A DNA stretch of 64,000 nucleotides from Periplaneta americana. Its lineage: Eukaryota; Arthropoda; Insecta; Blattodea; Blattidae. The position numbers were made by a program, and so were the translations under genes. This document shows positions 27,885 through 58,241 of the stretch, piece after piece. The notes beneath the pieces are model-generated. The model saw only the letters and a list, made by a program, of their open reading frames with translations, ran no database searches and was not told the origin of the DNA. The stretch lies in assembly GCF_040183065.1 (NCBI RefSeq), contig NC_091119.1, forward strand, positions 206,667,298-206,731,297, given 5' to 3'. Position 1 is the stretch's first letter. Each line of letters opens with the position of its first letter.

Positions 27885-27957
27885 ATGACGACAAGCATCA
27901 GGATTCTCGTGTTAGTAGCTGTCTTCTGTGTAGGACTACAGAACGTGGCAGACTCAG
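27885..27957 (+). CDS. OBP-B exon 1: start and signal peptide
   Basis: Starts with ATG at 27885 in a good context (CACAATGAC) and ends at a GTATGT donor. Encodes residues 1-24 plus the first base of codon 25. The peptide has a short polar N-terminus, a hydrophobic core ([12 protein letters not shown]) and small residues before the predicted cleavage near A23/S24-A25. The leftover phase is required by exon 2, whose only open frame needs one preceding base. Confidence 0.85.
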
Positions 27958-28126
27958 GTATGTAGCCCTCAAGTACTGTAAGTGTACTGTAGATCAATCC
28001 TCAATACGCGTTCTATGACATCTGAAAAGAAGCGAACATTCTTCTTCGCCAAAGTTCACTTTTCGCAACCGTGCAGTAGTGCTTAATTTCAACTGTCTTG
28101 AGCATTCTTTTAATTCACCGCAATCA

Positions 28127-28164
<38 letters not shown>

Positions 28165-30147
28165 TACTAGCCGTACCCGTGCGCTCCGCTGCACCTGTTA
28201 GAAATAAATATAAAGTAATTACATAATTAAAATAGGACGTTTGATCCAGGGAACAACTTTTACAACAGCGCAAGATAATCTGCTTCGCTCATTACCCATT
28301 TTTTTTGCATTGCATTTATTGCATATATATTTTATGTATTTTAACACGATTCAATTGAGTATAGTTAAAATTTGAATTATAAAATAATGGATTGCTAAGC
28401 TAACGTACTATTACTGCATACTAAATCAATACACTCTCGTTGTTCGTTAATTCTCTGAGATTAAAATGAGTGTACATAAATATTACTTTAAGGGGAGAGG
28501 ATAGTAATTTTTAAAACTTTTTTCTTATTTGGTGTAAAATATTAATTTTTTGTATGTAGAGAGCTCATGGCTATAGCAACTCAACAAAATATAAATATTT
28601 TGAATAAATTATTTGGGAGGCAGATTTGAAAAAAAAAATGTACCCAATGCAGGATTTTACTAAACTCGATATATCTAAGCCATTTTTAAAGATAAATTTA
28701 AACACTATGTTACAATTTATTTGTAAAAGCACGCTCTACAAACTGTCTGTAACAGAAATTTGATATTAGTTCCTACATTTGTAAAATAAACAATTAAAAT
28801 TTAATAACATTTTTTTTATTTTCTTTCTTGCAAACAGAGAGACTTATTTTTAAAATGAAATCAATTAGGGAAATTCCGTCACAGAGAAAAGTTTCCTAGT
28901 AGTCTAGAGAATGTGTATTCTAAATTTCATATATATATCTTTAATAGTTCAGAAATTATATCGATTTTTGTCTGGCTATGTAGCGAAAAAAGTAAAGTTC
29001 CAGAAACAGCAATCAAAGGGGGTGTGATTTAATAATCCAGAGCGCAGGAACTTGAAAATGGCGTCTCAACATCCAATAAGGGCACAGATACCCACACAAT
29101 GTTATACAATGTATTCCACACACATCACAGAGTATTTTAAAGAAAAATTTGGTTTTGAAAAAAAAAATGAAGTTCCGGAAACAACAAACAAAAGGGCGGT
29201 GTGATTTAAAAATCCTGAGCGCAGGAAGTTTAAAAATGGCGTCTCAACAACTGATAAGGGCACAAATACCCACAAAATATTATACAATGTATTCTGCACA
29301 TATCACAGAGTATTTTAAGGGAAAAAATTGTTTTTTGAAAATTTACTCATTTTTCACCAAAAAATACCATCCTCTTCCCTTAAGAAATACAGAAAACGAA
29401 TGTACAAAATAGCCTATCAAATTTTCTGTGCATAAGAAGCTATTTTAATCTTACCTGTCGTCGATTTACTCAGACGTTACTGTAATAACATTATAGCATT
29501 ATGTCCATCTAGAGAAACTACACTTTCCAATGGTGAAATAATAATTAATTATACAAATCGGTTAATTTAGCTTCTGATATTACTTCACACAAACACAGAA
29601 ACATTCTCTGTAGGCTACTATGTTTAATAGCTTTCTATTGTTGTTGTCCAAGGCCCCATATAGACGAAGTCATTTGTTCTTAATTGATTGCACCGTCTTA
29701 ATGGCGTTATTTTAATTTTAAAACTCATTTAGCTCATTAAATATCAGTCCTATCAAAATTTTGTAAAGAATAAAACTTATCGGAAATCATTTTTAAAGAA
29801 ACTTTTGTTACGTAACATTTTCCACTAAAATCAATAATAAGCGACATATTTCGATTTATTTAATTCAGGCCCCCTTATAACCCCCCTTTTAAATAAAGTA
29901 TTTTGAATGCCATATAGCCTAAAATCTAAGTTACAACGAACTTAATTTATATTCCAATTTTCATATAAATCGGTTCAGCCATTATCGCGTGAAAAGGTAA
30001 CAAACATACAGACAGACACACAAACAAAAATTTCAAAAATGCGATTTTCGGTTTCAGGGTGGTTAATTATATATGTTAGGACCAGTTATTTTTGGAAAAT
30101 CGAAAATTACCAGAAAAATTCCGGCTACAGATTTATTAGTATTATAG

Positions 30148-30212
<65 letters not shown>

Positions 30213-30800
30213 TTATGGCATTATTTGCAACAAACAATTAGAAAACTAATATGCAAATATAACATTCAAATTGAGTAATGACAATTTAAAATCCTGTGTT
30301 GTGTACGTTGTAAGTGCCAACCAGTAATTTTCAAGGAAATATGACAAATGAAGTAATACAACTCGAATTATAGTCACATTATACACATAATTTTGTTAAG
30401 AATTTCCTCTAATTTGTATTTTAAACATCTTTTTAAATGAAGGGCTTGGAGCAATAAGAAAAGTCACACTTTTGTTCAAATTGAGGTATTTGTATTTAAA
30501 TATGGAGAGAAATTTCCCATACCGTCTGTGAAAACAGTGTCATGATTCCTCAACAGATAGCACCACCATTCAATAAGTTCTTCTATTACCCGATAGATTT
30601 TCTGTCAGTTTCTGTGAAAGCACCATAGAGTTAGATGAATATAGCGCGTACAGCTGCCCAGAAGGCTGCTAAGGGGTATCAACATCGAAACACAGGCGAG
30701 TCACGTGACTTTGGGACGAACGTAGCCGATTTCTGTTGACTGACAAAGGCGCGTAAAGATTTTTTATAGGAAACTAGCTCAAAGCACTCGGGGTTGCCCC

Positions 30801-30836
<36 letters not shown>

Positions 30837-33800
30837 TGGTTGTTAGACTTTTCGGTCGTACTAAAGAATCAATATATACATATATCATTTAATTTATATT
30901 GGAAGATTTTTTACCCCTTGACTGCTGCAGGCCTATTTTTTAATATGACTTGAGAAACTATATCTCACATATTAGGCCTACATTAATTCTTATTTCATAC
31001 ACAGAATACAGATACAATATAAACTCGCAATAAGTAACTTTTTAACATAGAGACTAATATTCTGAGAGACATATACCAGTTTTTTTTTTTTTATAGAAAT
31101 TAAGAGAATATTTCCACAACGTATAACATACTACATTGGCAACGTGATTACACAGTTAGAATTTCGCAGTAACACATTTTCGGACATGAACAAAAATATT
31201 TTGAGAGACGTATGATATAATTTTTATTTTTACTATTTGACCTGACAGCGTTATTTTCAGTCGGCTTACGTACATTCACATACTACATTAGCAATATGAC
31301 AAAAGTATCACTGGACTTCTTTTTGATGCGTGTAAAATCTTTTTTTTTTCCTACTTCTTTGTATAAAATATAGTTGAGATTGTGAAAAACACGAAGTTTT
31401 TAAGTTAATGTCTGCAACTTTGAGGGACTGTCCTTGAGTTTAATTTTAATATGGCCATAACAAATGCTAGTGGCATTGAAATTGCAGTTGGTTAAAATCG
31501 AAATGCATTTAGTGGGTATCATAAAAATGCGTGGATAAAAACATCTTCTTCCGTTTTGCCAGTTAATATTGTCACTTCCATTACTACGTTCTGAATGAGT
31601 TTTTTCACACCAATTCTTGTTTCATTGCATAATTTTGATGGGTCAGTATTTCACAATAGCACTATTGGTGATTCAATATTAAGTATTAAATTATGTGGTA
31701 GCAATCCATGTGGGTGGAAAGAATTCAAGAATTCAGTTGGATAGAACACAGCCTGCTCACTATGTACAACTGCATTGAGAAATTGATAATACGTTCCTGG
31801 GCTGAGTAATAGTAATATACGTTACAAGAGCGGTATGTTGACGTTTTCATGTTCGAGGAAAAGGTTGAAAAAGCGAAACGTAATTTCCGAGAACATGAAA
31901 ACAAACATACCGCTCGTGTATCGTACATTATTTTGTGCGAAGATCGTTTATTACATACCTCAAAGACGAATTTCTAATTAGTTGCAATGAAATCTCCATC
32001 TTGGTTTCTGTTTAATGACGGCAACTTCGGAAAATAAAAATATCTTTCTCCAACATTGTTGCTATAAAATGTTTTCTGTGTTTACTATACTCCAGCAGAC
32101 CGTGATATACGTCTGTCTTTTTTCCCCCCCAGTCTACTGTATAAATGAGAACTTAAAACAAACGGTAAGGTTATGTAATGATTTATTTTTCATTTTAATA
32201 TTTTAACAATATTATTTATATAACATATTGCAGTAATAACATCGGCATCTGGAATCTTGTTGATTTTTTCACGGCTGCCTTAATGTTACTTGTATCAGGA
32301 ATGCAATAAGTTTCGTGGAGTGGTAGACTTTACTTAATTTTTTAAAATATTTAAAAACAATAATTAACATTGCAATTTAGGTGAAATTGCAGTGGTAAGT
32401 TTCCAATTTATAATTATTACTGTGTTAAACGTCTCTAAAAATAATATGTTAAAAGCCTAAAGCAGTAAAATGAATGTCGCGCTTAAGCGGTAAGAAGAGG
32501 GAAATTGTTGTGTGTGTTACGTTGGGAATACTGAATGTGGTATTTCACACTTACCGCGTATTGGTTCTGTGCGGAAAACAAGCAAATACGCACGATCTCG
32601 CACAAAGATATTTATTGCATGAATTGTTTAGTTTTAGCCCTCATGATGTGTCTCAACAATGTTATTTAATTTCGTGATATAATTTCCATGGCCTCGTGAA
32701 AGTCGATGTTGAATATAACAGACAAATAAAGAACAATTGACTGCAGAAAATTGCATTTTAATATTATACATGAATGTTTGATGTTATTTCTTATTTCTTT
32801 ATTAATTTAATGTCCATTTGCAGAACTTTAATATAGCCTATGTTCTTCTCCTGGTTATGAAAGTTAAATGTGCAAACTTTGGCAAATATCGATCAAAGCG
32901 TGTAGATTTGTATAGAGTACATACATACATACATACATACATACATACATACATACATACATACATACATACATACATAGCCACACTGACTTTTATATAT
33001 AAGATATATTATTTTTTTCTATCTAGCACAACAAGTAGAAATATCCTATTATACCTACGTATAAAGAAGTTCACTGATTGTCTAAACTCCCGTGACTGTA
33101 TATATTAGACCGAGATGATACCCTGCGCAGTAGACCAGGCGCGCTCTATCTATACTTACTCCATGGAAAGAACATAAGAAGAAAAAGAAACTGTGAAAAA
33201 TTAATGCAACTAAATGAAAAATGTAATTTATGTAGGCTGAGGTATGGAATACTGAGAATACACGCAGCGTATTGAAAGAAAATCCACAAAAAAATACTCG
33301 TAGGTTGTCAGAAGAACTTGGCTTTTCAAAGTATACAATACATCGACACGTTAAGATGCTTAGAAAAGCATATGAAAATTATAGATCTGTACCTCATGAA
33401 TTGACACTTGAACACGCTCAACGCAGAATGGACATTTGTCGTCAGCTTATCGATGCTCCTATGGATTATAGATTTAGCTGTATAAACGTTAATAAAATCT
33501 ATAAATTCCAACCGACTGTGCTAATTCTTTCAGAAAGTTGTTTAATACGCATGCCTACACCGTTTTCTATCATTACTTTCGATTTTCGACCCAAAGAAAA
33601 AGTTTGTAAAAATTTAGTTCTTGCGGGATTTTAAGGCATATAAATATGAATAAAAATTACAAGTACCATCGGAATCTTCTAATTTTTTTTAATTATTAAA
33701 TTCGTGTGCCTGCACAGATATCTGTCAACATTTTTTCAGCCTTAATTTCTCAGTTTCTAACCAAACCTGAAGTAGAAGAGCTCACAGTGTTCACGGATAA

Positions 33801-36800: not shown

Positions 36801-39800
36801 CACAGCTATTGAGACCAGAAGAGCCTTCCAGAAAATAAGACAAGTTAACGTGAGTGGGAGAACTGTAAGAGGACGTCTGGATGAATGTGGGCTGATTCCA
36901 GAAGACCAGCTAAAGGCCCAGAATTGCTCCAGCAACATCATGTTGAACGATTACGTTTTGCTCACAATCATGCTAATTGGAACCTGGGGGAGTGGCGACG
37001 AGTGCTCTTCACAGATGAATCGAGATTTAGTTTACAAATGGATGTGAAAGAGTGTGGAGAAGAGAAGGAGAACGTTTTTCTTCATGTACCTTCAGATCAC
37101 GTATCAGTTTCCAAGGTGGATCAGTAATGGTATGGAGTGGCATTTCGTATGAAGCTCCCACAGAACTTGTTTTAATTAATGGAGGTGCTTTGACTGCTTC
37201 AAGATACATCGAAGAGGTCTAATTTAACATGTGGTAAAATATGTCCCACTTATTGGTTGAAAGTTCCTGTTAATGCATGACAATGCTTGCCCTCATGCTA
37301 CAAGAATCGTGGATGAGTTCCTTCACGACGTTGGATTGAATAGGATGACATGGCTAGCGAGAAGTCCTGATATAAACCTTATTGAACATGTGTGGAAAAT
37401 GTTAGGGAAGCGAGTTAGAAGTCGTCTAACTCCTCACAGCAACTTACAGCAGCTCCGAAATTTTCTAAGTAAAGAATGGAATATAATCGACCAGACTGGC
37501 ATCCAGAATCTGATCGAAGGGTTGAATAGGCGAATGGTAACAGATCATACAGTCGCGGGGAGGCAATACCCGCTATTACCAACATCTGGGTGGCCACAAA
37601 ATCAGTTGAACGTTTGGAAGGAAATTGATATAATTTGTAAGTTTTTACACCTTTTAATTATATCTATTGTTTGGCGTTGAAAATAATAGCGCAAATGATA
37701 ATGAATAACTTTTTTTTTCTGGGAAGCAATGTTTTCTTAATTTCATAAAGGATTGTCTGATTCTCACCTTATAAAAAATTTAGAAATTTTAGGTGGCCCT
37801 GTTTTTTTTACCGGTGAGTGTATTTGTCCATTATTGCAGAAAAATGACCTTCAGATTTCACTTGTTTATTGTGTGTTTATGCAATGTGTACTAATAAAAA
37901 GAATCCATGTACTTTTCATTTATTTTTAATATTTCTGTGCTAGAATATGTTTGTACTCTTAAATTAGAAACTCAATGTATTGATTTACGAATAATTACAG
38001 CTCCAGCCATAGTCCATTCATGCTTTTAAGCATGAACTTATGAGTGGACCATAGTTGGGCAACTCAGAATACAACTATGTACCAATGCTTATTATTTTTT
38101 AACACTTGTAATTAAATAATTTCAAACACATATGTCAATCTATATACATAATCTCAACTGGTAATGGAAATTATGGGAAAAAGGCTAAACGGATTTTAAT
38201 AAATGACCCCTCATTTTAAAGGTTGGAACTCGAAGTTTTTCGGAAAAATAGTGACTTTCAGTGACGAGTTAGTTTTCCTACATAATTTTCCTATTTTCCA
38301 AAATCCATTTTTCGTCAGTTTTGAGAACTAATTGGATATCAGTATAAAACAAAACACACACTACAATAAACAATAGGATATCACACGAAGGTCATGACCT
38401 GCAGGATTGCTAACATATTTAGAGCTCAAATTCAATTGGTTATTAAAAACTTCAAGACTTACTAAAATAATTTACAGGTCTGATTCTGCGGTGTGTAATT
38501 TTCTGAGTACAGCTGTGGTGTATTGGATATTAAAATCTACAAAATCTGAGGTGGTTTGATGACATTATTACCATTAGAAATGAAATATTATTATAGTTAA
38601 TGCCATTATGTGACTACTTTTCATTAATATTATGATTATATGAATGTGAAACATTTTGGGGTTATAGAATAGAGAATAACTTAAATTAGCTCTTCATTTC
38701 TATAATTTACTGAGTGGCGGCTATATAGAAGGTATATAACTACAAAACTTACGTAAGATAATAATATTGTTATTAAAAATTAAATATTTTTATAGTTATT
38801 AATCAAGTGAGGGTGAGTCTTTTTCATGTATTTAATGGCGATGTGGTGTAGATATTTATATGCGCTCGAAAGAGCGTAAAAATTACAGTCCCTGATAAAA
38901 GACCAAAAGGTATTACTTACTGATAAAAACAAGAAGCCTACAAAATTATATAGTCTCCCGATCATTTCAGCAAGATCTCTTAGCAGGATAAAATGATTTT
39001 ACCCTCTACATGCAGCAGCTATAGCAAGATGCTAAGCTATTGTTCGAAAGCATAGCAAACCTGATATTTTTTTAAGTTTCACCTAGAATCCATAATGACC
39101 TGAAATAGCTATTGCTTTACTTCCATAAGAAAAACCGACTGACACTGTTACTTGCGTTTTCGCGTTGAAACTGAAAACCTTAAGATGGATAGGTTCAAGA
39201 AAAAGTATTTGGCATAAAAAAAAACATTCAGAGGGAGTATGTTTCATTATTACGGAAGCAAATATCTTTCAAAATGTCTGGTATTCTTCATTGAAAAAAA
39301 AAAATCTGAAAAAATTTTATTTGAACGTCTAATGAACTTAGTTTGCAGCATTTGCTGCACAAGCCACTAGTATTTATTTAATATAAACTTACAAGAGTCC
39401 GAAGCCAAAATTTCACTTAATCTGGATGAATAGTATTGAATATACAAAGAAAAATGTGACAAATGTGGACCATAGTTAGGGGAAAATACGGTATATCTCA
39501 AAACATGCAATATGTGGCTTGTCTTGTTATTGCCCCAAGCCCTTCAAATAATCACATCATGTTTGCAATCTTATCTGCTGGTCCTTCAATGATGCTAATA
39601 TAATATGCATCTACGTAAATAAAGACAAATTTTGTTGTTTACTTGATGGGAGACACGCCCATCTTAGTGGTTAGAAAATAACAATTTCTAATAGAAAGTA
39701 AGCGTATGTATTAAATCGTAATTTTTCTTGTTCCAGCACACAGCAGCACATCGCAAATGAGTCACCTGTCTTTTTCATCTCTCGCGTCATTGACGAGACC

Positions 39801-40609
39801 AAAGCGTGAAGCTGACGGCGAATTTAAGCAGGTGAGGGAGCAGATACATCATTTTATTGTAATAATAAATTCACAGCAGCAGTAACAAATATAAATGACA
39901 CTCGGGAGGAAATTAAACGCAGAATAAATATGAGAACTGCGTGTTATTATTCGCTTGACAAGCTCTTATCATCCAGTCTGCTGTCAAAAAATCTGAAAGT
40001 TAGAATTTATAATACAGTTATATTACCGGTTGTTCTCTATGGTTGTGAAACTTGGACTCCCACTCTGAGAGAGGAACATAGGTTAAGGGTGTTTGAGAAT
40101 AAGGTACTTAGAAAAATATTTGTGGCTAAGAGGGATGAAGTTACAGGAGAATGGAGAAAGTTACACAACGCAGAACTGCACGCATTATATTCTTCACCTA
40201 ACATAATTAGGGACTTAAAATCCAGACGTTTGAGATGGGCAGGGCATGTAGCACGTATGGGCGAATCCAGAAATGCATATAGAGTGTTAGTTGGGAGACC
40301 GGAGGGAAAAAGACCTTTAGGGAGGCCGAGACGTAGATGGGAGGATAATATTAAAATGGATTTGAGGGAGGTGGGGTGTGATGATAGAGACTGGATTAAT
40401 CTTGCACAGGATAGGGACCGATGGCGGGCTTATGTGAGGGCGGCAATGAACCTTCGAGTTCTTAAAAGCCATTTGTAAGTAAGCAAGTAAATAAATTCAC
40501 TTATTTAGATTTATCACAAAGATTCATTCCAAATTAATGTTTTACTACTACTGTTGCTGCTACTGCTACCTAACACCACTACTACTATTACTGTAATACT
40601 ATTATTATG

Positions 40610-40650
<41 letters not shown>

Positions 40651-47977: not shown

Positions 47978-48073
<96 letters not shown>

Positions 48074-48450
48074 TTTACTACATTTTAAGAGGCTGTGAAA
48101 GGAAATAAAGTTATGTGGGGCGAAAATATCATCACACCAGAGTTCTTGGTCCACTAAAGCAGTAAATTAATAAAATTAATTAATTTAATTACCACTATTA
48201 GCTTTTGATTATTGTATCATTTAGTTAAAAGAAATATTAGCATTTATAGCCCACCCAAAAATCAAAACCAGACTTAAAAAAAAAACAGAGTGCCAGAGAA
48301 AAATTGATTGCACCATTATTAAATTCAGCACTAAAATCCGAATTATAAGGTTCTCATTTCATACAAGAAAAAATTTCACTGTTGTTCAGTGTAATTAGTA
48401 AAAGTTTGGAGTCGGAACGAATCCAAAATAAACCAACATTCATGATTATA

Positions 48451-48484
<34 letters not shown>

Positions 48485-51400
48485 CGACGATTATGTAAAC
48501 GTTAACGTCATCACAGTTCCAAATTGTCTCCCATTTCGGCCATATATGTATATTAAATTTAAGCTTGGAGAACGACGTAGGTGAAGGAAGACGTTCATAC
48601 TCCAATATTAAAGTCTGGTCTCTGTAGTAATTTGAAACGCTGCAAGCTACAAGAATTTGAATTAATTGATGACACTTTATCCAATGTTTCTATTTCTTAC
48701 TTATTGTGAGCGAAGTCCACTTTGAACGAAGAGTCGACCTGGGTGGCGCATTGGTAGAGTGCTGGCCTTCTGTGCCTGAGGTTGCGGGTTCGATCCCGGC
48801 CCAGGTCAATGGCATTTAAGTGTGCTTAAATGCGACAGGGTCATGTCAGTAAATTTACTGGCATGTAAAAGAACGGCACACCGGCGACGTTGATATAACA
48901 TCGGCAGTTGCGAGCGTCGTTAAATAAAACATAATTTAATTTTGAACGAAGGAATTGTTTCAGTACAAAAAACTATGAGATGACCTGACTTTTAACTTCT
49001 ATTCCAGCAGAAGAGAATACGAAAGTCAGAAATGATGGTGCAGAATGTGAAACCTTCGGGAATTACAGTGCGGTAAGTAGCTGCAACCACAGAGAAAGAC
49101 AAGAAAGCAAGTGTTAGACTAGATTGGCAAGTGATATCATCTGACGAGCAGCTTCCATGTACTTTCCACAGATGTAAGATCAATATCTTTGAAGGTCGAT
49201 GAAAACTTATAAGATTATTGTATGTCTAGCCCCATTACAAAGTATTACTGTATGCTTGATTTTGTCAGTGAGGCATTAATTTAAGTTATTTTGTTCATTT
49301 AGTTGTGGTTTTTGCCACACCTACTTGTATCCATTTAAAATTCCTCCTTAAACGTTTTTAATTTATAAAAAGTAAGATTCAGACATTATACTGTATTAAA
49401 TTGTACAAATATTATATAAGTGATAATAGTTACGGTTTTTGCCTCACCTACTTCTATCCATTCAAAATTCCTCTTTAAACGTTAATAATTTATAAAAATA
49501 AGATTCAGACAATATACTTTATTAAGTTGTACAAATATTGTACAAGTGATGAAAGTGTACGAACAACATTAATGTCTCTTTTATTTTTCAGTGTATCGCG
49601 GAATGCGTCTTTAAAAAATATAAGGTGGTAAGTACGCTGAAATTTGATGAATTGAGATGTTCAACATGAACCAAATCATAATAAATTAAAATGGTATTTG
49701 TTAAGTTTGGAACTATCTGTGATTATAGACGGACATCAATGGCACTATCATCCCTGACGAAGCTATCAAAATAATCGAGCCACCCATACTCGCTGAAAGC
49801 GAAAAGTTCTGGAAAGCAGTTCGCAATAAATGTAGCAAAGGTAACTTACTAAAAATATGAGTTATTTAAAGTTGAAATTATACTCAAGTTATACAAAAGA
49901 AGTATAAAGTAAATGTTATTCATAGCAAAAGAAGAAATTAGTGATTATGTGTGCAGGAGTTGAAAGTCTGAAATATGATATTGGGTATGTGAATCTTGGG
50001 TTGCAATGAGTGTCTGGATATTTTCTTCTGGTGTCATTTCCTGATATACATCACACTTAGTGATTCAAGAACATAGATTATGATTTTACGTGTGATTTTG
50101 AAAAAAAATAGTAGAAAGTTCATATTAACGTCGGTTCAATTTCGAAACGTTACCTTATAAACTACGGAATTGACCGAGCATTTTCGGAATTATATCAATG
50201 ATATTCCAAAACACGCTATGTATGTATGCATTTATTTACACTGCAAGTGGGCAAGCACCCGGTGGCAGTGGTATATACAATATTAACAATACACAATAAA
50301 TTGATAAGCAATACACAATACAATTTTACAACACATAAAACAATTTTACAACACATAATATGTTTGATATACAACAATTTTTATCTCGGAAAGGAAGCAA
50401 AAACGAGCAAAATTACAAGTATATTAAACCATTTTGTTCGAAATATTTCAACGAATAACTCTCTGAAAAACACGCTATAAAATGTTTCATATCAAACAGT
50501 TTTTATCTCGGAAAGAGAGCAAAAACGAACAAAATTGTATTAAACGTTTTTGTTTGAAACATCTCAGAGAATAAGCCCTGAAATTAATGACATCATTTAC
50601 GGTTCATTTTGTATATGTGTAATGGAGGCTCTTGAAATACCTGCATTCGTTACCCCCATTCATCATTATCTTTATTCTTTCTATCTCTATCACTATCTGT
50701 ACATCTTAATAAATACTTACTTTAGTAATAAAACTTAATACAAGGTATACCCCCTGTCATTTGCTTCACCGCACCTGAACTTTTATAGTTATTTCCTTAT
50801 CATCTGCTTTATTATATTTTCATACTTCGTTTTTATTATCTATCCTTATTTACTATTATCCCGCAAGAGTTCTTTCACGATTACCGACACTTCAAAAAGA
50901 ATCCCTAAAGCTTAATTTTTTTAATTACTTTATCCCTCTCAGTTCATCATAACTACACTCTCTTAATATTTCTCTTACACAACTTTTCTAATCTACCTAT
51001 AATTGCCCTTTCATTCTTACTCTTCTAAGTTCTCCTTCGTTCCCTCCAAATATCCCTCGTTTCTCCTCCTCTTTTACTATAACATCACTTTATATTAGAA
51101 TATTCGATTTGATATCCAGTTTGCCTTTAGTTCCTGTTATTGTTTAATACATTTCCACAAGCTATGTTCATTTCTGCCTCTTAGATATAGTCATACTGTC
51201 CTAGCCTAAGCTTTTTCCCATTTCTTAAAAATGTACAGGGTGTCCGAATGAAACCTTTACAACTTCAGGTGTAAATAACAAATTATTGAGACAGATATCT
51301 GAACGCGATTTTCTGAATGTTAATTAGAAACTGTCAAAGTTCTTATGGGAATTATGTTGGACTGTTGAAATGCGTTTTTTGCTTTCAGGTGTGAATTTTG

Positions 51401-54400
51401 GTGAAATCTGACATTGAAGGAGATGTGATACCTCAGGAGATGGCACAATGTGTATCCTGGTTTATCGACACACGATCAGTAAGCCCTAGTAAGTCCAATC
51501 TCAGTGCCGCCAGTGAACTGAACTTGCCGCGTTCGACTGTGCACAAAGTCCTTCACAGGAATCTGAGGCTGTTTACCAACAAAGTTCAACCAGAGCAAGC
51601 TCTTCAGCCAGACGATCGTCTACACCGCACAGCATTTGCTCTCGACATTCTGGCTACTATTGATGCCGAGGAAGGTTTTCTTGCACACGTTCAATGTCCT
51701 CCACACTTGTGCTTTCCGCCAACTTACCTTCTGCCGCAGAACACTTACTCTGTGTAAGTTTTCGATGTCACCCCCGAATTATTGGGCGTGATGGCGGTTG
51801 TGTTCCATATTGGGTCCGGACGTGAAGTTGAACCTGTGTAACTGATCGTGCCTCGATAACCAGAATACACATTGTGCCATGTCCTTAGGTGTCCACATCA
51901 TCCAGTGTCAGATTTCAGATTTCACCAAAATTTACAATCCAAGAAATTCATTTTAACAATCCAACAAAATTCCCATAAAACGTTGTCAGTTTCTGAAAAC
52001 CACATTCAGATATCTTGTCTCAATAATTATTTGTTATTTACACCTGAAGTTGTAAATGTTTTATGTGGACACCCTGTATATCATTACAAATATTTTGCTA
52101 TACAATGTACAAAGCCATCTCTAATAATTTTGAAATTGATATAATGACAAACTTCTGTAATGTTATAGAAATGTTTATTATATCCAATTCAATTAACTCA
52201 TAAGAGTCTGATGAGTGATCCTCTAAGTGGTGATGAACTGTCACTGCACTTTATCGTATGAATATCATAAAACTAATTACTATTCTAACAAAAATGAACA
52301 CTTGATTATCAGAGAGTTCTCGCACCTTCTTGCTCCGCTAAATGGCTACCGTCATGTTGACGTCAATAGTGACGTATTTGGTGACGTATGTTCATGTTCG
52401 AAAAACATAGGAAAGAATCGTAAGGGAACTGTGCACGTAAGGCTCTATATAGATATTTCCAGCTCCTTTAAATACTTATCATGTCGTAGCTGCTATGATT
52501 GTCAATCAATCGCGCTGGATGTTTTTTTAATTGAGAGCTCAATCTCTAAGGAAAGCAAAGAACCAAATTGAAATGAAAATCTTTTTTTGAAAAGTGAGAA
52601 AAAAGTACTAACTTCGATATGATCTGTTCAGAATAAAGATTTATACCTTCAAAAGTTAGTAAGCGGCAAACTTTTTATTTTTCACTTTATCTGGGGTGTC
52701 AAAGCGAGACGAATGTTGAGAAAGAATGTAAATTACCTTTAAATGTTGTCGCTACTCCAAACCTTTACTACATTCCGAGTTGCGGAGAGTTAAACAGTGC
52801 AGGTTTTTGCTTGGCGGAGTACTCACGACTCAACTTTTGTCTATTGGAATTTCAGCGAAAAATTCTTCCTGAGCCTTATTGTACTTCTGATTGAATAATT
52901 TATCCATCTTGAGAGGTTCTAAATAGATGAACATCGTCCACAGTGGTAAATCTCAAACGACATGCCATGTTTAAACACCGAATTAAGTAAACTTCGCTCA
53001 TGTCCACGTTATCTGGCTACAGATAGCGAGTCCACTATTGAAATTACACTAAGGTGAATAACTCTGACTCGCTCTTTCATCAATGACGTCAACATAGCAT
53101 TAATCGCTTAGCGTATCAGTAGGGTGCAAAAACTCTCCATTGTTCGATAATAGAAGTTAATTTCAGTAATATTTATGTCAGTAAAAGCAGGTATCGAGCA
53201 GAATACCTTGTGTAACACAGCAGCCAATGACTACTTTGAATGCGTGATCTACTTCGCTTACCTGGTAAGTAAACACCATTGAAATATCGAGATATTATGT
53301 ATTTGTTTATATTATTGTGTGGATAAGTGATAATACTCACGATGGTGTTTGTCAACTCAAAATTGTATGTAACTGACGTAAGGCACCTTGACTAATGATC
53401 TCCATCTCTATGTATATTTCTGTCGCTAGTAAATTGAGGATAGCCCTATTTCCTAAATTGCCTTTTTGTTTCTGAAACTGCTAAACATGCACGGGTTACA
53501 TTAGCTGCTTGTCTATGCGGATGACGTGAATATGCTAGGAGAAAATTCACGAACGATTAGGGAAAACACGGGAATTTTACTTAAAACAAATAAAGACAAA
53601 GTTTTAGAAGTAAACCCTGAAAAAGAACCAAACTATAAGATGTCTTGTGACCAGAACATAGTACGAAATAAAAATTAAAAAATTGGAAATTTATCCCTTC
53701 AAAAGGTGGAAAAATTCAAATAACTTGGAAAACAATAATACATATAAATGACACACGAGAAGAAATTAAACGCAGAATAAATATGGGAAATTCCTGTTAT
53801 TATTCAGTTCAGAAGCTTTTATCATCCAGTCTGCACTCGAAAAATCTTAAAGTTAGAATTTATAAAACAGTTATATTACCGGTTGTTCTTTATGGTCGTG
53901 AAACTTGGAATCTCACTTTGAGAGAGAAATAGAGGTTAAGGGTGTTCGAGAATAAGGTGCTTCGGAAAATACACAACTCATAATTGCACGCATTGTATTC
54001 TTCACCTGACATAATTAGGAACATTCCACATTTAAGATGGGCAGGGCATGTAGCACGTAAGCATGAATCTAGGAATCGATGTAGAGTATTAGTTGGAAAA
54101 ACTAAGAGGAAAAGACCTTTGGGGAGGCCGAGTATATAGTTATTTTACCTTAGATATTCCAACTAACACTCTATACGCATATTGAATTCACCCATGCATG
54201 CCACATGCCCTGCCCATCTCAAAGTTTGCATTTAATTTTCCTAATTATGTCAGATGGAAAACACAATACGTGCAGTTGTGCGTTGTGTACTTTTTCTATT
54301 CTACACTAACTTCATCATCCTTAGCCCCAAATATTTTCCTAAGCACCTTATTCTCAAACACCCTTAACCTCTGCTCCTCTCTCAAAGTGAGGATACAAGT

Positions 54401-54908: not shown

Positions 54909-54968
<60 letters not shown>

Positions 54969-56515
54969 TAATAATAATAATAACAATAATAATAATAATA
55001 ATAATAATAATTCACTTTTCTGTTAGCAAGTTTACATTTTTACAACACAATTCGTGCACACGTTAACCATGTAGAAGCATCTTAAGCAGAGTATTGAAAA
55101 TTGATCCACGTAGCTTTCTGTCTAAAAGTTTCGAGTGAGCCACAGAAAACAATAAGAATAACAACAATAAACAGGGTGATCCAGAAGGAGTAGTAACTAT
55201 TGCAGGAACTGTTCTTAACAACTATTCTGTTCAAAGAGTTCATACAGCTGCATTACACACTTTTTATATTTTATCTCTAATGATATTGGAAATCTGTTGT
55301 ATAAACAACTTCCCTTCGTTATTTGACACTGTTCTCGTAATTTACCTTAATTAATATATAATCAATAACTAAAGTAAATTACCAACATAGTTTCAATTAA
55401 CACATAAAAGTTTTTTTTGGACCTATAATAAATTTACCAAATCTTTAGTAAAACAAGTTCATATAAACATGTGCATGAATTACCAACGGCTGTGGAAGTG
55501 ACTACAACGCTCGGACATCTCTGAAAATTGTTCATAAAATGTACATAATACAGTATTTCCTTTATAATTGAGACTTTCTCTGAAACAAGAACGTAACTAC
55601 AAAATCTTGAATTTGAGTAACAGATCATCAAACATTTCAGATGTGGTATAACAGCATTGTACATTCAAATGTTTCTAGAGGGAGCTGTGTTTGTTGAAGG
55701 CACAATAGTATTTCTTTTTTTCAGGAGGAAAATATGTTATTAAGATTCAACATATCTTGAAAACTTAAAAAGTGGTCAAATGTATATTAAGTTGTTATTC
55801 CAGTGAATGTCTCCAGTTCAATAAGTCAAGTAGCCTATCCTTATTTTCTGCTAGTTCATTTAATTTCGTTTATCTGTAACTTTGAAGCAGATAAAGTTCG
55901 ACATACACTAATTAAATGTATTTTAATTTCTTACAGTACTGCCCGGCAGAGAAACAGGTCAAAGGTAAGAAATAAAATTCAGCGTATTTATATGCGTGCA
56001 AAACTGTAGTTACTGCTTTTTAAATATGCGCATAACACACAGTGAACGATTACAAAACAACATAATTTCTGAACGAAAAATAAGTAGCAATATAAAAACA
56101 AATGTACAATTTTGTAAATTTCAGTAATACTGTTACAAGCACCAAATCTTGCACAACCTCAGATAAAGTTTATATTCTGCTGTATAAATATCTTAGTTGA
56201 CAACGTTCCTAAAACCTCAAATCTCAGTGATATTTAAATCATTAAACTCCTTGCACAATTCCAGAGGTTGCTATTAGAAGTTATCACAGTAGTAGATAGC
56301 GAGAGTCACTACCAAATTTCCGCAATCAATTTGTCTCATTTTGTAGGTAAATTATTTCTTCTATCTGTTATAAAACGACTACCAGACATACAACAATATT
56401 TTCTCAAAGAGTATAAGAAAAGCAAACTTGATAATGATATAAAAAGGCACAGGAAACAAAGCAAATTTACTTATTAATAGTGTGACAACTTGAAGAAATT
56501 ACGATTCAGTTCATA

Positions 56516-56566
<51 letters not shown>

Positions 56567-58241
56567 CCGTGGCGCTACATCCCGTGAAGGACCTAGACCG
56601 ACCAGCCGGCTGCTGGCCTCACGCCCACATACCGAAGCAGAGGTGGACGATCATCCAACCAGAATGGAGATATCGTGTGGTTAGCACGATGATCCACCCA
56701 GCCGTTATAGCTGGTATTCGCAACCGGATTTCGCTACCTATCGTAGCTCCCCAAGTGCATCACGATGCTGGGTGGGCACCGGTCCCATACACTGGCCGAA
56801 ATTTCATGAGAAAATTTCTTCCCACATGAGGATTGGAACCAGCGCCCATTCCGTAACGCGAGTCCTAGGCGGGATCAGTTCGTAAACCTGAGAATAAAAG
56901 GTTCATGAACTGTTCCCTAGGAAACTGTTCACAATCGCAGAACTAAAATTTCTAAAATATAACAGCTGATAACTGAAGATGAAATTGCATTGATTCTTAA
57001 TTTAGTGCTATACTGTAAAGTCATGGTTTTTACAAAATGTTGTTGTTGTGTTGTTGTTTTCTAATGCCAGGCGTTTGACAATAAAGTCATTTGACCTCTT
57101 GCACTCCAATATTTTTCAAAGATATTATCATGGCCAGCCACTGAAGCACAGATTTTGAGGTGTTCCGAATCCATTTCTTGGTTTGAGTTGCACAATGGGC
57201 AGTTAGGAGACTGATATATTCCAATTCTATGCAGGTGTTTGGCCAAACAATCATGGCCTGTTGCCAATTTAAAAGCAGCTACAGACGATTTTCGTGGTAA
57301 ATCGGGAATTAACTGTGGATTATGATCCAGAGAGTTCCATTTTTTCCCTTGAGATTGTGTTATCAAATTTTGTTTGTTGAAGTTTGCTTTTTATAAAATA
57401 CTCTGTGAAGAAAGTCATGACTCCATCATACATGTCCAAAGCTTTCTATTGTATAGTTTACAAGTTAGCTAGTTGCTAGTCACTACCATGTAGTATAGAC
57501 TTGAGCTCTGAGACACGGCCTAAGTAGAAGACGTGATGTGGATAAACTTGTTTTGGTACGGTACTCCTATCGAAACTGGTTCTACACCGTCATTAAGGAA
57601 ATTTAGTGTGTTACTAACTTCAATTAAAAAATATATGAATATAATATCTAGTCTTTTGTGATTACAAATTATTTATAATAAAGGAACGTTCCCAAATTAC
57701 CATGTTTAACGTCGCACATGGTTAAATATCAGAAATAAATAGGTACTCGTACTGGACACAGAAGAATTGTAAAGATTAAGACAAAGCTCTCAAAAATATC
57801 TTAAAAGCTGCATTCAAGTAACCGTTTTGTGTCACTATTGAAACACTCGTGTTTGACATCACCCTCCGTAATTTTTATTTCTGACGTGGAGACCAAATGT
57901 AAACATACTACGTTCTACTTCTTCCATCACACTCGGTTACTCTTTGTGCATTACACAACACAATAATAGTAGACACCGATCTAGTTAACGTAAGAAGTCT
58001 GTCTCTATGGCAACGTACGATGTGACGCTTCTTACTTGTTCCTCTTACAAACAACCAGAAATGTCATTCAAACACTATTGGAAAGAACATTTACGTCTTT
58101 ACAAAAACTTTGTTTGCCTTACATTTATATTGAAGGAACGCGTATTGGTTATTTTTTTATTACTGCTAAGAATTTTTTGTTCCAGACCCAATATGCGATG
58201 AGCTGACAGTGACACTTCGGAAGAAATACAACGAGGAATAG
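27885..58241 (+). CDS. Plus-C odorant-binding protein gene (OBP-B), nine exons, complete
   Basis: Joined coding sequence of 657 nt (218 aa plus TAG). Exon lengths are 73, 95, 121, 62, 36, 112, 74, 28 and 56 nt, and every junction keeps frame. Residues 1-24 are a hydrophobic signal peptide, so the product should be secreted (OBPs act in sensillar lymph and other extracellular fluids as carriers of small hydrophobic ligands). Mature cysteines lie at 58, 80, 109, 118, 122, 164, 174, 184, 193 and 204, with C118-X3-C122, C122-X41-C164, C184-X8-C193 and Pro194 directly after C193. This closely follows the Plus-C OBP signature (C-X3-C, X39-47, X9, X8, C-P-X9-11-C). The C164-C174 spacing (9) is shorter than the usual 17-29. 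Sequons occur at N65, N114 and N133, and an RPKR basic site at 45-48. Total span is about 30 kb, almost all intronic repeats. No ligand can be inferred. The gene model rests on splice logic, not on transcripts. Confidence 0.88.
28129..28163. repeat. (ATT)n microsatellite
   Basis: About 11 ATT triplets in OBP-B intron 1. Confidence 0.9.
28165..30145. repeat. Interspersed repeat in intron 1, motif CCGTACCCGTGCGCTCCGC
   Basis: Begins CTAGCCGTACCCGTGCGCTC and ends near CGGTTCAGCCATTATCGCGT, CAGACAGACACACAAAC and an ATT array. This head-and-tail layout is common in arthropod interspersed repeats of LINE or Helitron-like origin; class not decided. Contains a tandem duplication at 28996-29343. Confidence 0.55.
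28996..29343 (+). repeat. Two ~174-base tandem units
   Basis: Units begin AGTTCCAGAAACAGC (28996) and AGTTCCGGAAACAAC (29170) and share GAGCGCAGGAA, AATGGCGTCTCAACA and ATCACAGAGTATTTTAA. Confidence 0.85.
30150..30211. repeat. (ATT)n microsatellite
   Basis: About 20 ATT triplets. Confidence 0.95.
30786..30833 (+). other. Perfect GC hairpin followed by 30 T
   Basis: ACTCGGGG-TTG-CCCCGAGT (30786-30804), an 8-bp stem, then an uninterrupted T tract to 30833. In an insect nuclear context this is more likely a transposon end or pol III product terminus than a bacterial terminator. Confidence 0.6.
30834..31806. other. OBP-B intron 1, nothing recognised
   Basis: AT-rich sequence with T tracts; no coding signal. 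Confidence 0.35.
31807..32606 (+). repeat. ~800-base interspersed repeat, copy 2 (in OBP-B intron 1)
   Basis: Near-identical to 26774-27576, same orientation, 5.03 kb apart. The two copies bracket the OBP-B promoter and exon 1. Confidence 0.8.
32918..32979. repeat. (TACA)n microsatellite
   Basis: About 15 ATAC tetramers. Confidence 0.95.
33250..33480 (+). pseudogene. Mariner-like transposase N-terminal fragment
   Basis: Reads [53 protein letters not shown], matching the helix-turn-helix and VPHELT linker of mariner transposases. The catalytic domain does not follow. Confidence 0.75.
33700..34514 (+). pseudogene. Transposon-associated protein fragment with [11 protein letters not shown] motif
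   Basis: The first part reads [20 protein letters not shown]; after a frame change it ends with [25 protein letters not shown] and [16 protein letters not shown]. The F-x-D-N-C-G-G-Q-N-x-N type motif resembles the RNase-H-like DUF7869 family, often transposon-encoded in insects. Frame breaks near 33860 and 34090-34100. Confidence 0.6.
34515..34914. other. OBP-B intron 1, nothing recognised
   Basis: AT-rich; no features. Confidence 0.35.
34915..35090 (-). mobile_element. CR1/L2-like LINE 3' terminus
   Basis: ATTTATTTATTTATTT tail then AACCTGGTAGAAATAAGGC and ATCAGGTCTTCTCTTCCCC, the same 3' end seen at 12311 and (inverted) 18640-18715. Confidence 0.75.
35735..36204 (+). pseudogene. Protein gene of the 4.4 kb transposon, frameshifted
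   Basis: Reads [19 protein letters not shown] and [12 protein letters not shown], then shifts frame near 36005 to [20 protein letters not shown]. The order YEGELWPGK, RSGKxW, WxxxxDILWY, I..KI recurs in uncharacterised transposon-encoded proteins of insects and cnidarians. Function unknown. Confidence 0.55.
36276..37820 (+). mobile_element. Tc1-like transposon, full length but degenerate
   Basis: Ends CACTCACCTGCAAAAAAAAC and its inverse ending ACCGGTGAGTG, flanked by TA on both sides (36274-36275, 37821-37822). Length 1,545 bases. Nested inside the 35109-39494 element. Confidence 0.9.
36570..37590 (+). pseudogene. Tc1 transposase, multiple frame breaks
   Basis: Recognisable in pieces: [20 protein letters not shown] with [13 protein letters not shown], then [31 protein letters not shown] (first Asp, near 37010), [15 protein letters not shown] (second Asp) and [16 protein letters not shown] (Glu). 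Second Asp to Glu spacing is 34. At least three frameshifts. Confidence 0.88.
37823..39460. other. Right part of the 4.4 kb transposon
   Basis: Contains two subterminal boxes near 38046-38094, otherwise AT-rich with no coding frame of note. Confidence 0.4.
39737..39831 (+). CDS. OBP-B exon 2: Ser-rich N-terminus with RPKR site
   Basis: Acceptor TTCTTGTTCCAG and donor GTGAGG. Only one of three frames is open, and it is the one joined by exon 1. Encodes residues 25-56: a Ser/Thr-rich stretch, then RPKR at 45-48, which fits the furin consensus R-X-K/R-R, then EADGEFKQ. There is no cysteine. A LINE with target-site duplications begins 44 bases after the exon. Confidence 0.82.
39875..40489 (+). 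mobile_element. RTE-like LINE family 1, 5'-truncated, with target-site duplication
   Basis: Flanked by AATAAATTCAC (39864-39874 and 40490-40500). Encodes the best-preserved C-terminal RT frame in the window (39930-40478): [80 protein letters not shown]. The tail is GTAAGTAAGCAAGTAAA. Lies 44 bases after OBP-B exon 2, same strand. Confidence 0.92.
40600..40650. repeat. (ATT)n microsatellite
   Basis: ATT triplets before the SINE head. Confidence 0.9.
40655..40880 (+). mobile_element. tRNA-derived SINE, same family as 13577-13855
   Basis: Head CTCATGGGCTAGTGGTCAGA with B-box GGGTTGGATTCCC; body GAACACAGGAATTTTTCC; tail region CATCGGGGCAGCGTAACTCC. Confidence 0.82.
40885..41056 (+). mobile_element. 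LINE family 2, 3' fragment
   Basis: Matches about 11240-11396, including TCTTTAAGATTGTTTGAACC and AAATGCAACACTGTTACAG. Confidence 0.8.
41057..41370 (+). pseudogene. RTE-like LINE family 1 with internal deletion
   Basis: The start reads [15 protein letters not shown], the N-terminal APE-endonuclease motif of this LINE type, then jumps to C-terminal RT sequence ([20 protein letters not shown]). Confidence 0.75.
41470..41740 (-). mobile_element. tRNA-derived SINE
   Basis: Minus-strand head CTGTGGAGTAACGGTCAGCG with B box GGGTTCGAATCCCGG; body GAGGTTTTTTCCGGGG and GAGCAAATGCTGGGTAAC. The same family as 17421-17650. Confidence 0.85.
41940..42150. repeat. Short GC-richer repeats (CACGTCGAAC) and GACTGACTGACTG tract
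   Basis: CACGTCGAACCCC or CACGTCGAACTCC occurs three times at ~40-base spacing, followed by AAGACTGACTGAAGACTGAC-type repeats. Higher GC than neighbours; origin unknown, possibly part of an LTR or SINE. Confidence 0.6.
42515..42610 (+). repeat. Possible tRNA-like SINE head
   Basis: TCTCAGTAGCGTAAGTCG resembles an A-box region and CAAGGTTGGAATCTCCC a weak B box 50 bases on. Tentative. Confidence 0.4.
42903..42948. repeat. (ATT)n microsatellite
   Basis: About 15 ATT triplets. Confidence 0.95.
43225..43440 (+). mobile_element. LINE leader-like sequence
   Basis: Reads [33 protein letters not shown] and ANNPSP then stop. I recognise this text as commonly preceding the endonuclease ORF of a cockroach RTE-like LINE. 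The ORF itself is absent here. Confidence 0.5.
43536..43597. repeat. (TA)n microsatellite
   Basis: About 30 TA dinucleotides; cruciform-prone. Confidence 0.95.
44017..44137 (+). CDS. OBP-B exon 3: charged linker with first two mature cysteines
   Basis: Acceptor CTGTCAGTTTCAG and donor GTAAGC. In the frame set by exon 2 it encodes residues 57-96 plus one base: VCW, a basic/acidic stretch ([10 protein letters not shown]), then [14 protein letters not shown]. It begins in phase 0 and ends with one extra base, exactly the shift needed between exon 2 and exon 4, which is strong evidence that it belongs here. Cys58 and Cys80 are in this exon. A foldback element starts only 28 bases after the donor. 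Confidence 0.82.
44166..44720. mobile_element. Foldback element with ~150-base inverted ends
   Basis: Left TATACAAGATGAACCCTAAG and right end GGATCACTCTGTATA are inverse; inside, ATTTCAGGGGGTTATTCTTT is mirrored by AAAGAATAATTCCTTGAAAT, and the arms continue to AACACGCTATGAAATG. Non-coding. Starts 28 bases after OBP-B exon 3. Confidence 0.8.
44721..45302. other. OBP-B intron 3, nothing recognised
   Basis: AT-rich; no signal. Confidence 0.35.
45303..45557 (-). pseudogene. Fragment of an uncharacterised transposon-like protein ([10 protein letters not shown] motif)
   Basis: Minus strand: [45 protein letters not shown], then after a frame change [21 protein letters not shown] recognise this motif order from an abundant, uncharacterised, transposon-like ORF family in hemimetabolous insects. 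Broken. Confidence 0.55.
45964..47282 (+). mobile_element. Mariner transposon, full length, inactive
   Basis: Ends CGAGGGGGGACCCAAAA and its inverse TTTTGGGTCCCCCTCG, each flanked by TA (45962-45963 and 47283-47284). Length 1,319 bases. Lies in OBP-B intron 3. Confidence 0.95.
46159..47201 (+). pseudogene. Mariner transposase, stop plus frameshifts
   Basis: N-terminal domain [19 protein letters not shown] and [20 protein letters not shown], then NL-stop-W (TGA at 46453), a frameshift near 46490, [20 protein letters not shown] (first catalytic Asp), a frameshift near 46795, [14 protein letters not shown] (second Asp) and [20 protein letters not shown]. The usual third Asp (CDF/CDY) is Glu here, and spacing from the second Asp is 33 instead of 34. 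Ends GQYFEGD-stop at 47201. Confidence 0.9.
47290..47978. other. OBP-B intron 3, nothing recognised
   Basis: No coding or RNA signal. Confidence 0.35.
47979..48073. repeat. (CTA)n microsatellite
   Basis: About 31 uninterrupted CTA triplets, the longest pure array in the window. Confidence 0.97.
48448..48492. repeat. (GAT)n microsatellite
   Basis: About 13 GAT/GAC triplets. Confidence 0.9.
48732..48940 (+). mobile_element. tRNA-Arg-like SINE with target-site duplication
   Basis: The head at 48736-48807 folds as a tRNA: acceptor GACCTGG/CCAGGTC, A box TGGCGCATTGG, formal anticodon TCT, B box GGTTCGATCCC. A ~130-base body follows (CGGCACACCGGCGACGTTGA) with an A-rich tail. TTTGAACGAAG/TTTGAACGAAGG flank it (48721 and 48941), a duplicated target. 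Located 70 bases before OBP-B exon 4. Confidence 0.88.
49011..49072 (+). CDS. OBP-B exon 4 with NAGNAG acceptor
   Basis: The acceptor reads ATTCCAGCAG, a tandem NAG-NAG site. Using the second AG gives exon 49011-49072; using the first adds CAG at 49008 and one extra Ala in the protein. The donor is GTAAGT. Encodes residues 97-117, including [11 protein letters not shown] with Cys109 and the sequon N114-Y-S. Cys109 lies eight residues before the C-X3-C motif in exon 5. Confidence 0.85.
49302..49555 (+). repeat. Two ~127-base tandem units in intron 4
   Basis: Units begin GTTGTGGTTTTTGCCACACC (49302) and GTTACGGTTTTTGCCTCACC (49429) and share CAAAATTCCTC-, AAGATTCAGACA- and TTGTACAAATAT-type text. 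Confidence 0.88.
49592..49627 (+). CDS. OBP-B exon 5: C-X3-C motif
   Basis: A 36-nt microexon with acceptor TTATTTTTCAG and donor GTAAGT. It encodes residues 118-129, [12 protein letters not shown]. The C-X3-C pair is the C2/C3 hallmark of insect OBPs, in the third helix of the fold. Begins and ends in phase 0. Confidence 0.88.
49729..49840 (+). CDS. OBP-B exon 6: central helices to C4
   Basis: Acceptor GTGATTATAG and donor GTAACT. Encodes residues 130-166 plus one base: [12 protein letters not shown], then an [14 protein letters not shown] segment and VRNKCSK. Cys164 is 41 residues after the second cysteine of the C-X3-C pair, within the Plus-C range. The acceptor lacks a long pyrimidine tract. 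The exon joins exon 7 through a shared Gly codon. Confidence 0.85.
49841..50214. other. OBP-B intron 6, 5' part
   Basis: Nothing recognised before the copy B repeat begins. Confidence 0.35.
50217..50355 (-). mobile_element. LINE 3'-end fragment, same family as 5846-8712
   Basis: Contains GGGCAAGCACCCGGTGGCAG as at 5870-5890. It splits the foldback repeat (ACACGCTATG | AATATGTTTG), so it inserted into it; severely 5' truncated. Confidence 0.8.
50356..50616 (-). repeat. Foldback element end, copy B
   Basis: Two ~120-base subrepeats with ATCTCGGAAAGGAAGC and AAAACGAGCAAAATT, ending TTCATTTTGTATATG. Copy A has three subrepeats (1-372). Confidence 0.7.
50617..51233. other. Intron 6 sequence matching 373-1014
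   Basis: Pyrimidine-rich, no gene. Confidence 0.5.
51236..52076. mobile_element. Long-TIR Tc1/mariner-like derivative, copy B
   Basis: Same element as 1017-1822: ends CAGGGTGTCC and GGACACCCTG flanked by TA, with transposase fragment [19 protein letters not shown] then [18 protein letters not shown]. Confidence 0.78.
52312..53136. mobile_element. CRE-containing foldback, copy B
   Basis: Ends AGAGTTCTCGCACCTTCTTG and inverse GGGTGCAAAAACTCTC; arms carry TGTTGACGTCAATAGTGACG and GTCAATGACGTCAACA. About 90 bases longer inside than copy A. Confidence 0.65.
53191..53264 (+). CDS. OBP-B exon 7: C-X9-C helix
   Basis: Acceptor AAAAGCAG and donor GTAAGT. The incoming base from exon 6 completes GGT, and the frame reads [18 protein letters not shown] then VIYFAYL (residues 167-191). 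Cys174 and Cys184 are nine residues apart. The exon has a diverged homologue at 2840-2913 in OBP-A. It lies just after a foldback element (52312-53136). Confidence 0.87.
53485..54145 (+). pseudogene. RTE-like LINE family 1, copy B
   Basis: Orthologous to 3119-3795: [21 protein letters not shown], later [16 protein letters not shown]. Several stops and a deletion in the C-terminal part. Confidence 0.78.
54146..54900 (-). pseudogene. RTE-like LINE family 1, inverted, copy B only
   Basis: Minus strand: [40 protein letters not shown], then C-terminal RT text down to 54146. It faces the plus-strand copy at 53485-54145 tail to tail, giving a long imperfect inverted repeat. Confidence 0.8.
54907..55012. 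repeat. (AAT)n microsatellite
   Basis: About 35 AAT triplets with two AAC interruptions. Confidence 0.95.
55013..55936. other. Intron 7 sequence matching 3862-4744
   Basis: AT-rich, no gene. Confidence 0.5.
55937..55964 (+). CDS. OBP-B exon 8: Cys-Pro microexon
   Basis: A 28-nt exon with acceptor TTTCTTACAG and donor GTAAGA. It encodes YCPAEKQVK (residues 192-200) plus one base. Cys193 is eight residues after Cys184 and is followed at once by Pro194, the diagnostic C-P of Plus-C OBPs. Identical at all 28 bases to the OBP-A exon at 4745-4772. Confidence 0.87.
56515..56872 (-). mobile_element. SINE-like insertion with AAT tail, copy B only
   Basis: A (AAT)n tract (56517-56566) followed by GC-richer sequence; minus-strand head near 56872 has GACTCGCGTTACGGAATGGG and GCTGGTTCCAATCC, weak A and B boxes. 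TTCAGTTCATAAA before and TCAGTTCGTAAA after are a diverged target duplication; copy A (about 5391) has one copy. Confidence 0.7.
57018..57393 (-). pseudogene. LINE C-terminal fragment with zinc-knuckle motif, copy B only
   Basis: The minus-strand frame 57366-57061 reads [55 protein letters not shown]-x-C...EHL..C after a GHDCLAxHLxRIG segment is typical of the region after RNase H in R1/LOA/Jockey-type LINEs. Absent at the equivalent point in copy A (near 5530). Confidence 0.75.
57394..58185. other. Intron 8 sequence matching copy A
   Basis: Matches 5530-5845 and 8713-9194 with the copy A LINE absent. No gene. Confidence 0.5.
58186..58241 (+). CDS. OBP-B exon 9: terminal exon
   Basis: Acceptor TTTTTTGTTCCAG. 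With the base from exon 8 it reads [18 protein letters not shown] and stops at TAG (58239-58241). Cys204 is nine residues after Pro194. The stop occurs where OBP-A has TAC, so this protein ends five residues earlier than OBP-A. A short MITE begins about 20 bases after the stop, inside the presumed 3' UTR. Confidence 0.87.

Follow-up and report, generated by a model that had tools for sequence, protein, structure and literature searches.

A nine-exon gene for a predicted Plus-C-type odorant-binding protein in a same-strand tandem array of the American cockroach

A gene of nine short exons occupies positions 27885-58241 on the plus strand of the window, the 64,000-nt stretch of Periplaneta americana DNA analysed here, and its joined product is identical, letter for letter and over the full length, to a protein already deposited for this species. 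The gene, referred to here as gene B, is very probably a functional cockroach odorant-binding protein (OBP) gene of Plus-C type that lies in a same-strand array on a chromosome of this species and encodes a secreted carrier of small hydrophobic ligands, the duplicates of which have diverged with selection for change. Assignment to the OBP family draws jointly on profile matches, the cysteine pattern and gene structure, the profile scores being weak.

Structure of the gene and its deposited product

Exon 1 (27885..27957) supplies the start codon and a hydrophobic, signal-peptide-like segment, and ends after 24 codons plus 1 nt. The serine-rich exon 2 (39737..39831) carries a furin-like R-P-K-R site at residues 45-48, exon 3 (44017..44137) contains an extra N-terminal cysteine (Cys58), an acidic/charged stretch and C1 (Cys80), and exon 4 (49008..49072) carries Cys110, which is absent in the two neighbouring paralogues. 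The remaining cysteines of the pattern are distributed over five small exons, namely exon 5 (49592..49627, 36 nt) with C2-X3-C3 (CIAEC), exon 6 (49729..49840, 112 nt), which reaches C4, exon 7 (53182..53264, 83 nt, with its start as in the deposited protein) with C4a-X9-C5, exon 8 (55937..55964, 28 nt) with C6-P, and exon 9 (58186..58241) with C6a, the C-terminus and the TAG stop. All nine exons are on the plus strand. The architecture proposed in the initial annotation was thus recovered in most respects: the gene is complete, all eight introns are GT-AG, the frame is unbroken, the phase of exon 3 is compatible with exons 2 and 4, and the longest exon measures 121 nt. The product length of 218 residues had to be revised, since the join that uses an exon 7 acceptor at 53191 comprises 660 nt and 219 aa, and the join with exon 7 starting at 53182 comprises 669 nt and 222 aa; it is the latter that equals the deposited protein P0001.

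A first protein search returned P0001 with 99% identity at full cover and a second protein, P0002, with 63% identity; a second search, run with an alignment, added P0003 (55% identity), and a third search, also with an alignment, found nothing beyond these three P. americana proteins. All three are deposited only as 'uncharacterized protein' of Periplaneta americana. The view that the gene was hidden is therefore correct with respect to the deposited text, which lacks a family name, and incorrect with respect to the protein itself, which is already present in public databases. The gene is regarded as real because of the full-length identity with a deposited protein and a nearly identical nine-exon layout in two adjoining paralogues. 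These two observations, together with Markov controls of the mini-exon search described below, rule out a chance assembly of exons, and the gene stands far beyond chance.

The introns were initially described as full of transposons. Dispersed repeats are indeed present, for example at about 39880-40490, a stretch that recurs at several further positions of the window, but three open reading frames in the introns yielded no Pfam family above the cut-off. A tRNA-Arg-like match in intron 3 (48736-48808) is, by eye, likely to be the head of a SINE. Just past the stop codon of gene B, at about 58260-58447, there is an insertion with ends that look inverted by eye; it resembles a small DNA transposon and is absent from both paralogues. 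Elsewhere in the window, three tRNA-Asn (GTT) genes, two on the minus strand and one on the plus strand, lie in or beside tandem repeats of about 286 nt at 21803-22623, and a 123-nt unit is repeated in tandem at 60680-61170, the units being about 94-96% alike. Pieces of a reverse transcriptase (PF00078) and a DDE_3 transposase (PF13358) are found in the flanks at 59487-59966, 6738-8782 and 15803-16261, the two PF00078 pieces on the minus strand scoring below the cut-off.

A tandem array on one strand

When P0002 and P0003 were mapped in 264 kb around the window, both aligned exactly to nine-exon genes on the plus strand, gene A (P0002) at -30971..9262 and gene C (P0003) at -77018..-51784 in window coordinates, gene A being the nearer upstream paralogue. 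Among A, B and C the exon lengths are 73, 95, 112 or 121, 62 or 65, 36, 112, 83, 28, and 56 or 68 nt; P0001, P0002 and P0003 have 222, 225 and 219 aa, and the start-to-start distances among C, A and B are 46,047 and 58,856 nt. The last three exons of gene A are inside the window on the plus strand, as mapped from P0002 (exon 7 at 2831..2913, exon 8 at 4745..4772, which is identical to exon 8 of gene B, and exon 9 at 9195..9262, which includes the stop). Between A and B there is an orphan exon 9 (16406..16461, plus strand) close to exon 9 of gene C, the two peptides differing by one junction residue; other exons of this copy were not found within the window. In addition, 124-14436 and 50356-64000 duplicate each other over much of their length. 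A lone gene was also considered as a reading of the locus, and was rejected once the neighbouring copies had been found.

The two smallest internal exons offered a way to look for further members. Patterns for a 36-nt exon with C-X3-C at its start and a 28-nt exon with C-P, built from genes A to E, which were already known, were searched in 294 kb (264 kb plus 30 kb). On the plus strand the exon 5 form was found at eight distinct places (20 raw counts, a figure inflated by triple hits of the expression at some of them) and the exon 8 form at seven, the two alternating along the strand; on the minus strand of the 294 kb neither form occurred, and no array genes were found there. In 20 second-order Markov control sequences the mean was 0.6 raw counts for the exon 5 form and 0 for the exon 8 form. 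Genes F, G and H are new finds of this search. Exon 7 was located for seven of the eight exon 5 places and exon 6 for five of them (G, C, A, B and D). At gene H (147674) exon 5 is the only exon recovered, with no exon 6 in 6 kb and no exon 7 or 8 in the 26 kb beyond, and the count is accordingly given as at least seven same-strand genes in 294 kb, perhaps eight, as predicted from these exon patterns. The array would span -119170 to 147674 in window coordinates, with F, G, D, E and H outside the window. A search of the whole genome with the gene D peptide gave three matches, all of them exons of gene D itself.

Plus-C cysteine pattern and the C4-C4a gap

The proposal that gene B belongs to the OBP family was upheld by the Pfam profile PBP_GOBP (PF01395), although narrowly, as P0001 scores 23.4 bits against a cut-off of 22. 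P0002 reaches 22.2 bits and P0003 remains below the cut-off at 17.3 bits, while the 219-aa join of gene B scores 24.1 bits and that of gene D, made from exons 5-9, scores 24.3 bits. The profile of AgamOBP47-like proteins (PF22651, OBP47_like), which represents mosquito Plus-C proteins, matches residues 164-211 of P0001 (C4-C6a) weakly, with 14.7 bits and well under the cut-off of 27; at E up to 1 it gives no match in the other two proteins. Sequence comparison against solved structures, run at E up to 10, matched no OBP and produced only weak matches to other proteins. An AlphaFold2 model built on the three paralogue sequences is poor, with a mean pLDDT of 34.9. By eye, a hydrophobic, signal-peptide-like N-terminus is kept in all three paralogues.

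The available text of PMC2808328 gives the Plus-C motif as C1 X8-41 C2 X3 C3 X39-47 C4 X17-29 C4a X9 C5 X8 C6 X9-11 C6a, and a version with the proline appears in the accessible part of PMC4956155. The eight-cysteine layout with C6-P, as first proposed for gene B, is present in A, B and C alike. The C1-C2, C2-C3 and C3-C4 spacings are 38, 3 and 41 in P0001 (with Cys80 as C1) and in P0003, and 37, 3 and 41 in P0002 if its extra Cys132 is counted over. In addition, C4a-C5 (9), C5-C6 (8) and C6-C6a (10, including the proline) fit the motif in all three paralogues. The exception is the C4-C4a gap. In the five of eight array genes for which it was measured, each with its best-scoring acceptor, it amounts to 10 in D and to 12 in the other four (A, B, C and G), outside the 17-29 of the motif. 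Because this gap in the deposited forms departs from the published motif, the array proteins are termed Plus-C-type, and are not members of the class by the strict motif.

The size of the gap depends on the start of exon 7. The gap of 9 initially reported for gene B requires the acceptor at 53191, which is among the two weakest of four in-frame candidates, whereas the acceptor at 53182, 9 nt upstream, adds V-K-A and gives a gap of 12. The deposited A and C proteins use the acceptor matching 53182 and hence an 83-nt exon 7. In a score table derived from 21 acceptors in these three genes (A, B and C) with exon 7 excluded, a small set of related and non-independent sites that score 4.2 to 19.7, the gene B candidates score 7.8 (53182), 2.4 (53167), 0.5 (53191) and 0.3 (53188), and the ranking at the matching sites of A and C is the same. 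The deposited A, B and C proteins and the acceptor scores therefore led to the rejection of a main form with a gap of 9. A scan for exon 7 in the other genes gave only an 83-nt form in F and G, forms of 77 and 98 nt in D, and forms of 62, 80 and 86 nt in E; the best-scoring forms, 77 nt in D and 86 nt in E, are both different from 83 nt. In A, B and D the in-frame acceptor of the 53167 type, further upstream and lower in score, would yield a gap of 17, and its counterpart in C a gap of 18. Taken as predictions from splice sites, these data indicate that a C4-C4a gap below the published range is likely to be genuine in the array genes; the distinct hemimetabolous subgroup initially suggested by the short gap is one possible reading of it.

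Minor products made through the other exon 7 acceptors, either 53191 with its gap of 9 or 53167 with a gap of 17 that would fit the Plus-C motif, seem somewhat unlikely. In-frame AGs for both are present in A, B and C, the UniRef label 'isoform X2' on P0001 and P0002 implies that other isoforms exist, the 90% UniRef clusters of these two proteins hold 2 and 3 member sequences, and in P0002 the acceptor of exon 4 is shifted by 3 nt, so that this exon measures 62 nt and not 65. However, both sites score lower than 53182 in the small table of related genes, and in gene G the 83-nt exon 7 with a gap of 12 is the only form found.

Divergence among the paralogues

Over 221 codons, A and B differ with a dS of 0.117 and a dN of 0.220, a ratio of 1.88 (codon bootstrap 0.006). 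Alignment of exon 3 is difficult; with this exon left out, 181 codons remain, over which dS is 0.061 and dN is 0.160, a ratio of 2.61 (codon bootstrap 0.0005). When the A-B comparison is divided into groups of exons, exon 2 gives a ratio of 5.2 (bootstrap 0.003), exon 3 one of 0.97, exons 4-6 one of 1.7 (0.11) and exons 7-9 one of 3.0 (0.046). In this last group, neither the Fisher test against silent sites (P 0.53) nor that against introns (P 0.25) was significant. The two pairs that include C show no excess, with ratios of 1.13 and 0.94, or 1.09 and 1.05 without exon 3, so that an excess of dN over dS was found in one of three gene pairs, tested without correction. When C is used to polarise the A-B differences, both branches prove to have changed (37 replacement and 5 silent in A, 38 and 6 in B, 23 unresolved). 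Exon 1 differs between A and B by two changes, both replacements, and exon 8 by none.

The introns provide a second yardstick. Among aligned, ungapped intron sites, mismatches number 1257/13756 for A-B, 960/7941 for B-C and 922/7645 for A-C, and replacement differences per site (0.191, 0.238 and 0.228, respectively) are above the intron level in all three pairs; without exon 3 this excess still has P below 0.001. Silent sites also exceed introns in both pairs with C (P 0.010 and 0.021), which means that the intron yardstick is too low for these pairs, and such a low figure is expected because counting was limited to BLAST-aligned stretches. For A-B there is no difference between silent sites and introns (P 0.26), and the case for selection thus rests on this pair, in which the excess of amino-acid changes over silent ones points to selection for change.

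Upstream region and a furin-like site

In the 300 nt before the ATG, A and B are similar and the nearer part is also shared with C. An alignment of this region revealed a TATA-like element, TATATAAGG, at 27718..27726 (plus strand), conserved in A, B and C, and a second TATA-like element at 27831..27836 (plus strand), which lies 54 nt ahead of the start codon and is shared with A and partly with C.

All three proteins carry R-P-K-R or R-P-R-R at residues 45-48, which we take to be a furin-type site by its consensus; as the copies are related, their agreement counts for little, and between 2 and 10% of shuffled mature sequences contain such an R-P-[K/R]-R motif. The region upstream of exon 5 was scanned in six genes with a fixed exon 2 pattern derived from A, B and C; the pattern was present in these three genes and not found in D, E or G, nor on the minus strand of the 264 kb. 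Perhaps the site is limited to a single subgroup; alternatively, the fixed pattern missed the others. The cysteines at 58-61, 110 and 132 vary among A, B and C. Speculatively, these three genes could encode proproteins in which a furin-like cut after R-P-[K/R]-R frees the Plus-C domain from a serine-rich propeptide, with the domain diversifying under positive selection and its cysteines at 58-61, 110 and 132 partly reshuffled, a scheme that we consider unlikely.

Possible functions

According to the preferred reading, gene B, for which the DNA layout and the deposited protein show nine short exons and the alignment a conserved region just upstream, would be spliced from these exons, and its product would be exported by means of the predicted signal peptide. 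The mature protein would, as expected of the family, fold into a helical carrier stapled by disulfides and could carry a small hydrophobic ligand in sensillar lymph, in another body fluid or in a secretion. The duplicates would then have diverged, with amino-acid changes exceeding silent ones in the one pair (A-B) that shows this by dN/dS.

An excess of replacement changes is common in reproductive and secreted defence proteins, and the A-B pattern would also suit an OBP-fold protein with a non-chemosensory task, namely a carrier or secretion component in the haemolymph, cuticle, gut or reproductive tract. Such a role, which is compatible with membership of the OBP family and competes with the sensory reading alone, is given a little less than an even chance. 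It agrees with the description of PameOBP3, a P. americana Plus-C protein, in the available part of PMC5232348, where expression is broad across tissues and higher in female abdomens than elsewhere, and all 87 odorant ligands tested bound only weakly. By contrast, the newly added OBPs of Blattella have mostly head RNA-seq support, and the accessible text of PMC6175461 suggests that they might be gustatory. By analogy with related Plus-C proteins, taste, secretory or other non-antennal roles would be at least as likely as smell. That gene B is instead a decaying or non-functional duplicate, its high replacement rate reflecting relaxed constraint, appears most improbable: the orphan exon 9 suggests that copies do decay at this locus and dN/dS is near 1 in two of the three pairs, but relaxation alone is not expected to raise dN above dS as in A-B, the frame, splice sites and eight Plus-C cysteines are intact in all three genes, and between A and B the signal-peptide exon and exon 8 have hardly changed or are identical.

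Relation to known systems and implications

The OBP family and its tandem habit are already known in cockroaches. In Blattella germanica the Plus-C clade comprises 71 genes, most of them in a 61-gene array over about 1.6 Mb, and OBP genes typically have 7-9 short coding exons after a signal exon, as stated in the accessible part of PMC6175461. The P. americana genes resemble this clade, as described there, in being tandem cockroach Plus-C-type OBP genes with many short coding exons, whereas the first intron, compared by description and not by sequence, is in phase 1 in gene B and in phase 0 in most Blattella OBP genes; the close genes here lie 46 and 59 kb apart, start to start. Compared likewise by description and not by sequence, PameOBP3, which has 8 conserved cysteines, shares the species, the subclass and a similar length with gene B, and the last of three lengths listed in the available text of PMC5232348 is 215 aa. 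Two Plus-C types have been described in locusts (PMC6062766, PMC5623057 and PMC5913285, each in its accessible part). No published description of the P. americana array was found in the open literature that was searched.

The accessible part of the P. americana genome paper calls the OBP numbers of blattodeans, which are highest in P. americana, 'dramatically reduced' relative to Drosophila and other insects (PMC5861062), and another 2018 paper, in its available text, gives 109 OBPs for Blattella (PMC6175461). The array described here is in tension with the former statement, although it represents a single locus. With at least seven predicted Plus-C-type genes in 294 kb, three of them deposited as 'uncharacterized', it suggests that OBPs with small exons may have been undercounted. 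The paired mini-exons, one of 36 nt carrying C-X3-C and one of 28 nt carrying C-P on the same strand, constitute a simple local finder where the protein searches of this analysis failed. Furthermore, positive selection on these carriers can be put to the test with the pair A-B. If the proprotein scheme were true, the three genes would form a family of carriers that track ligands or evolve as in an arms race, in a species with an OBP repertoire that has been called reduced.
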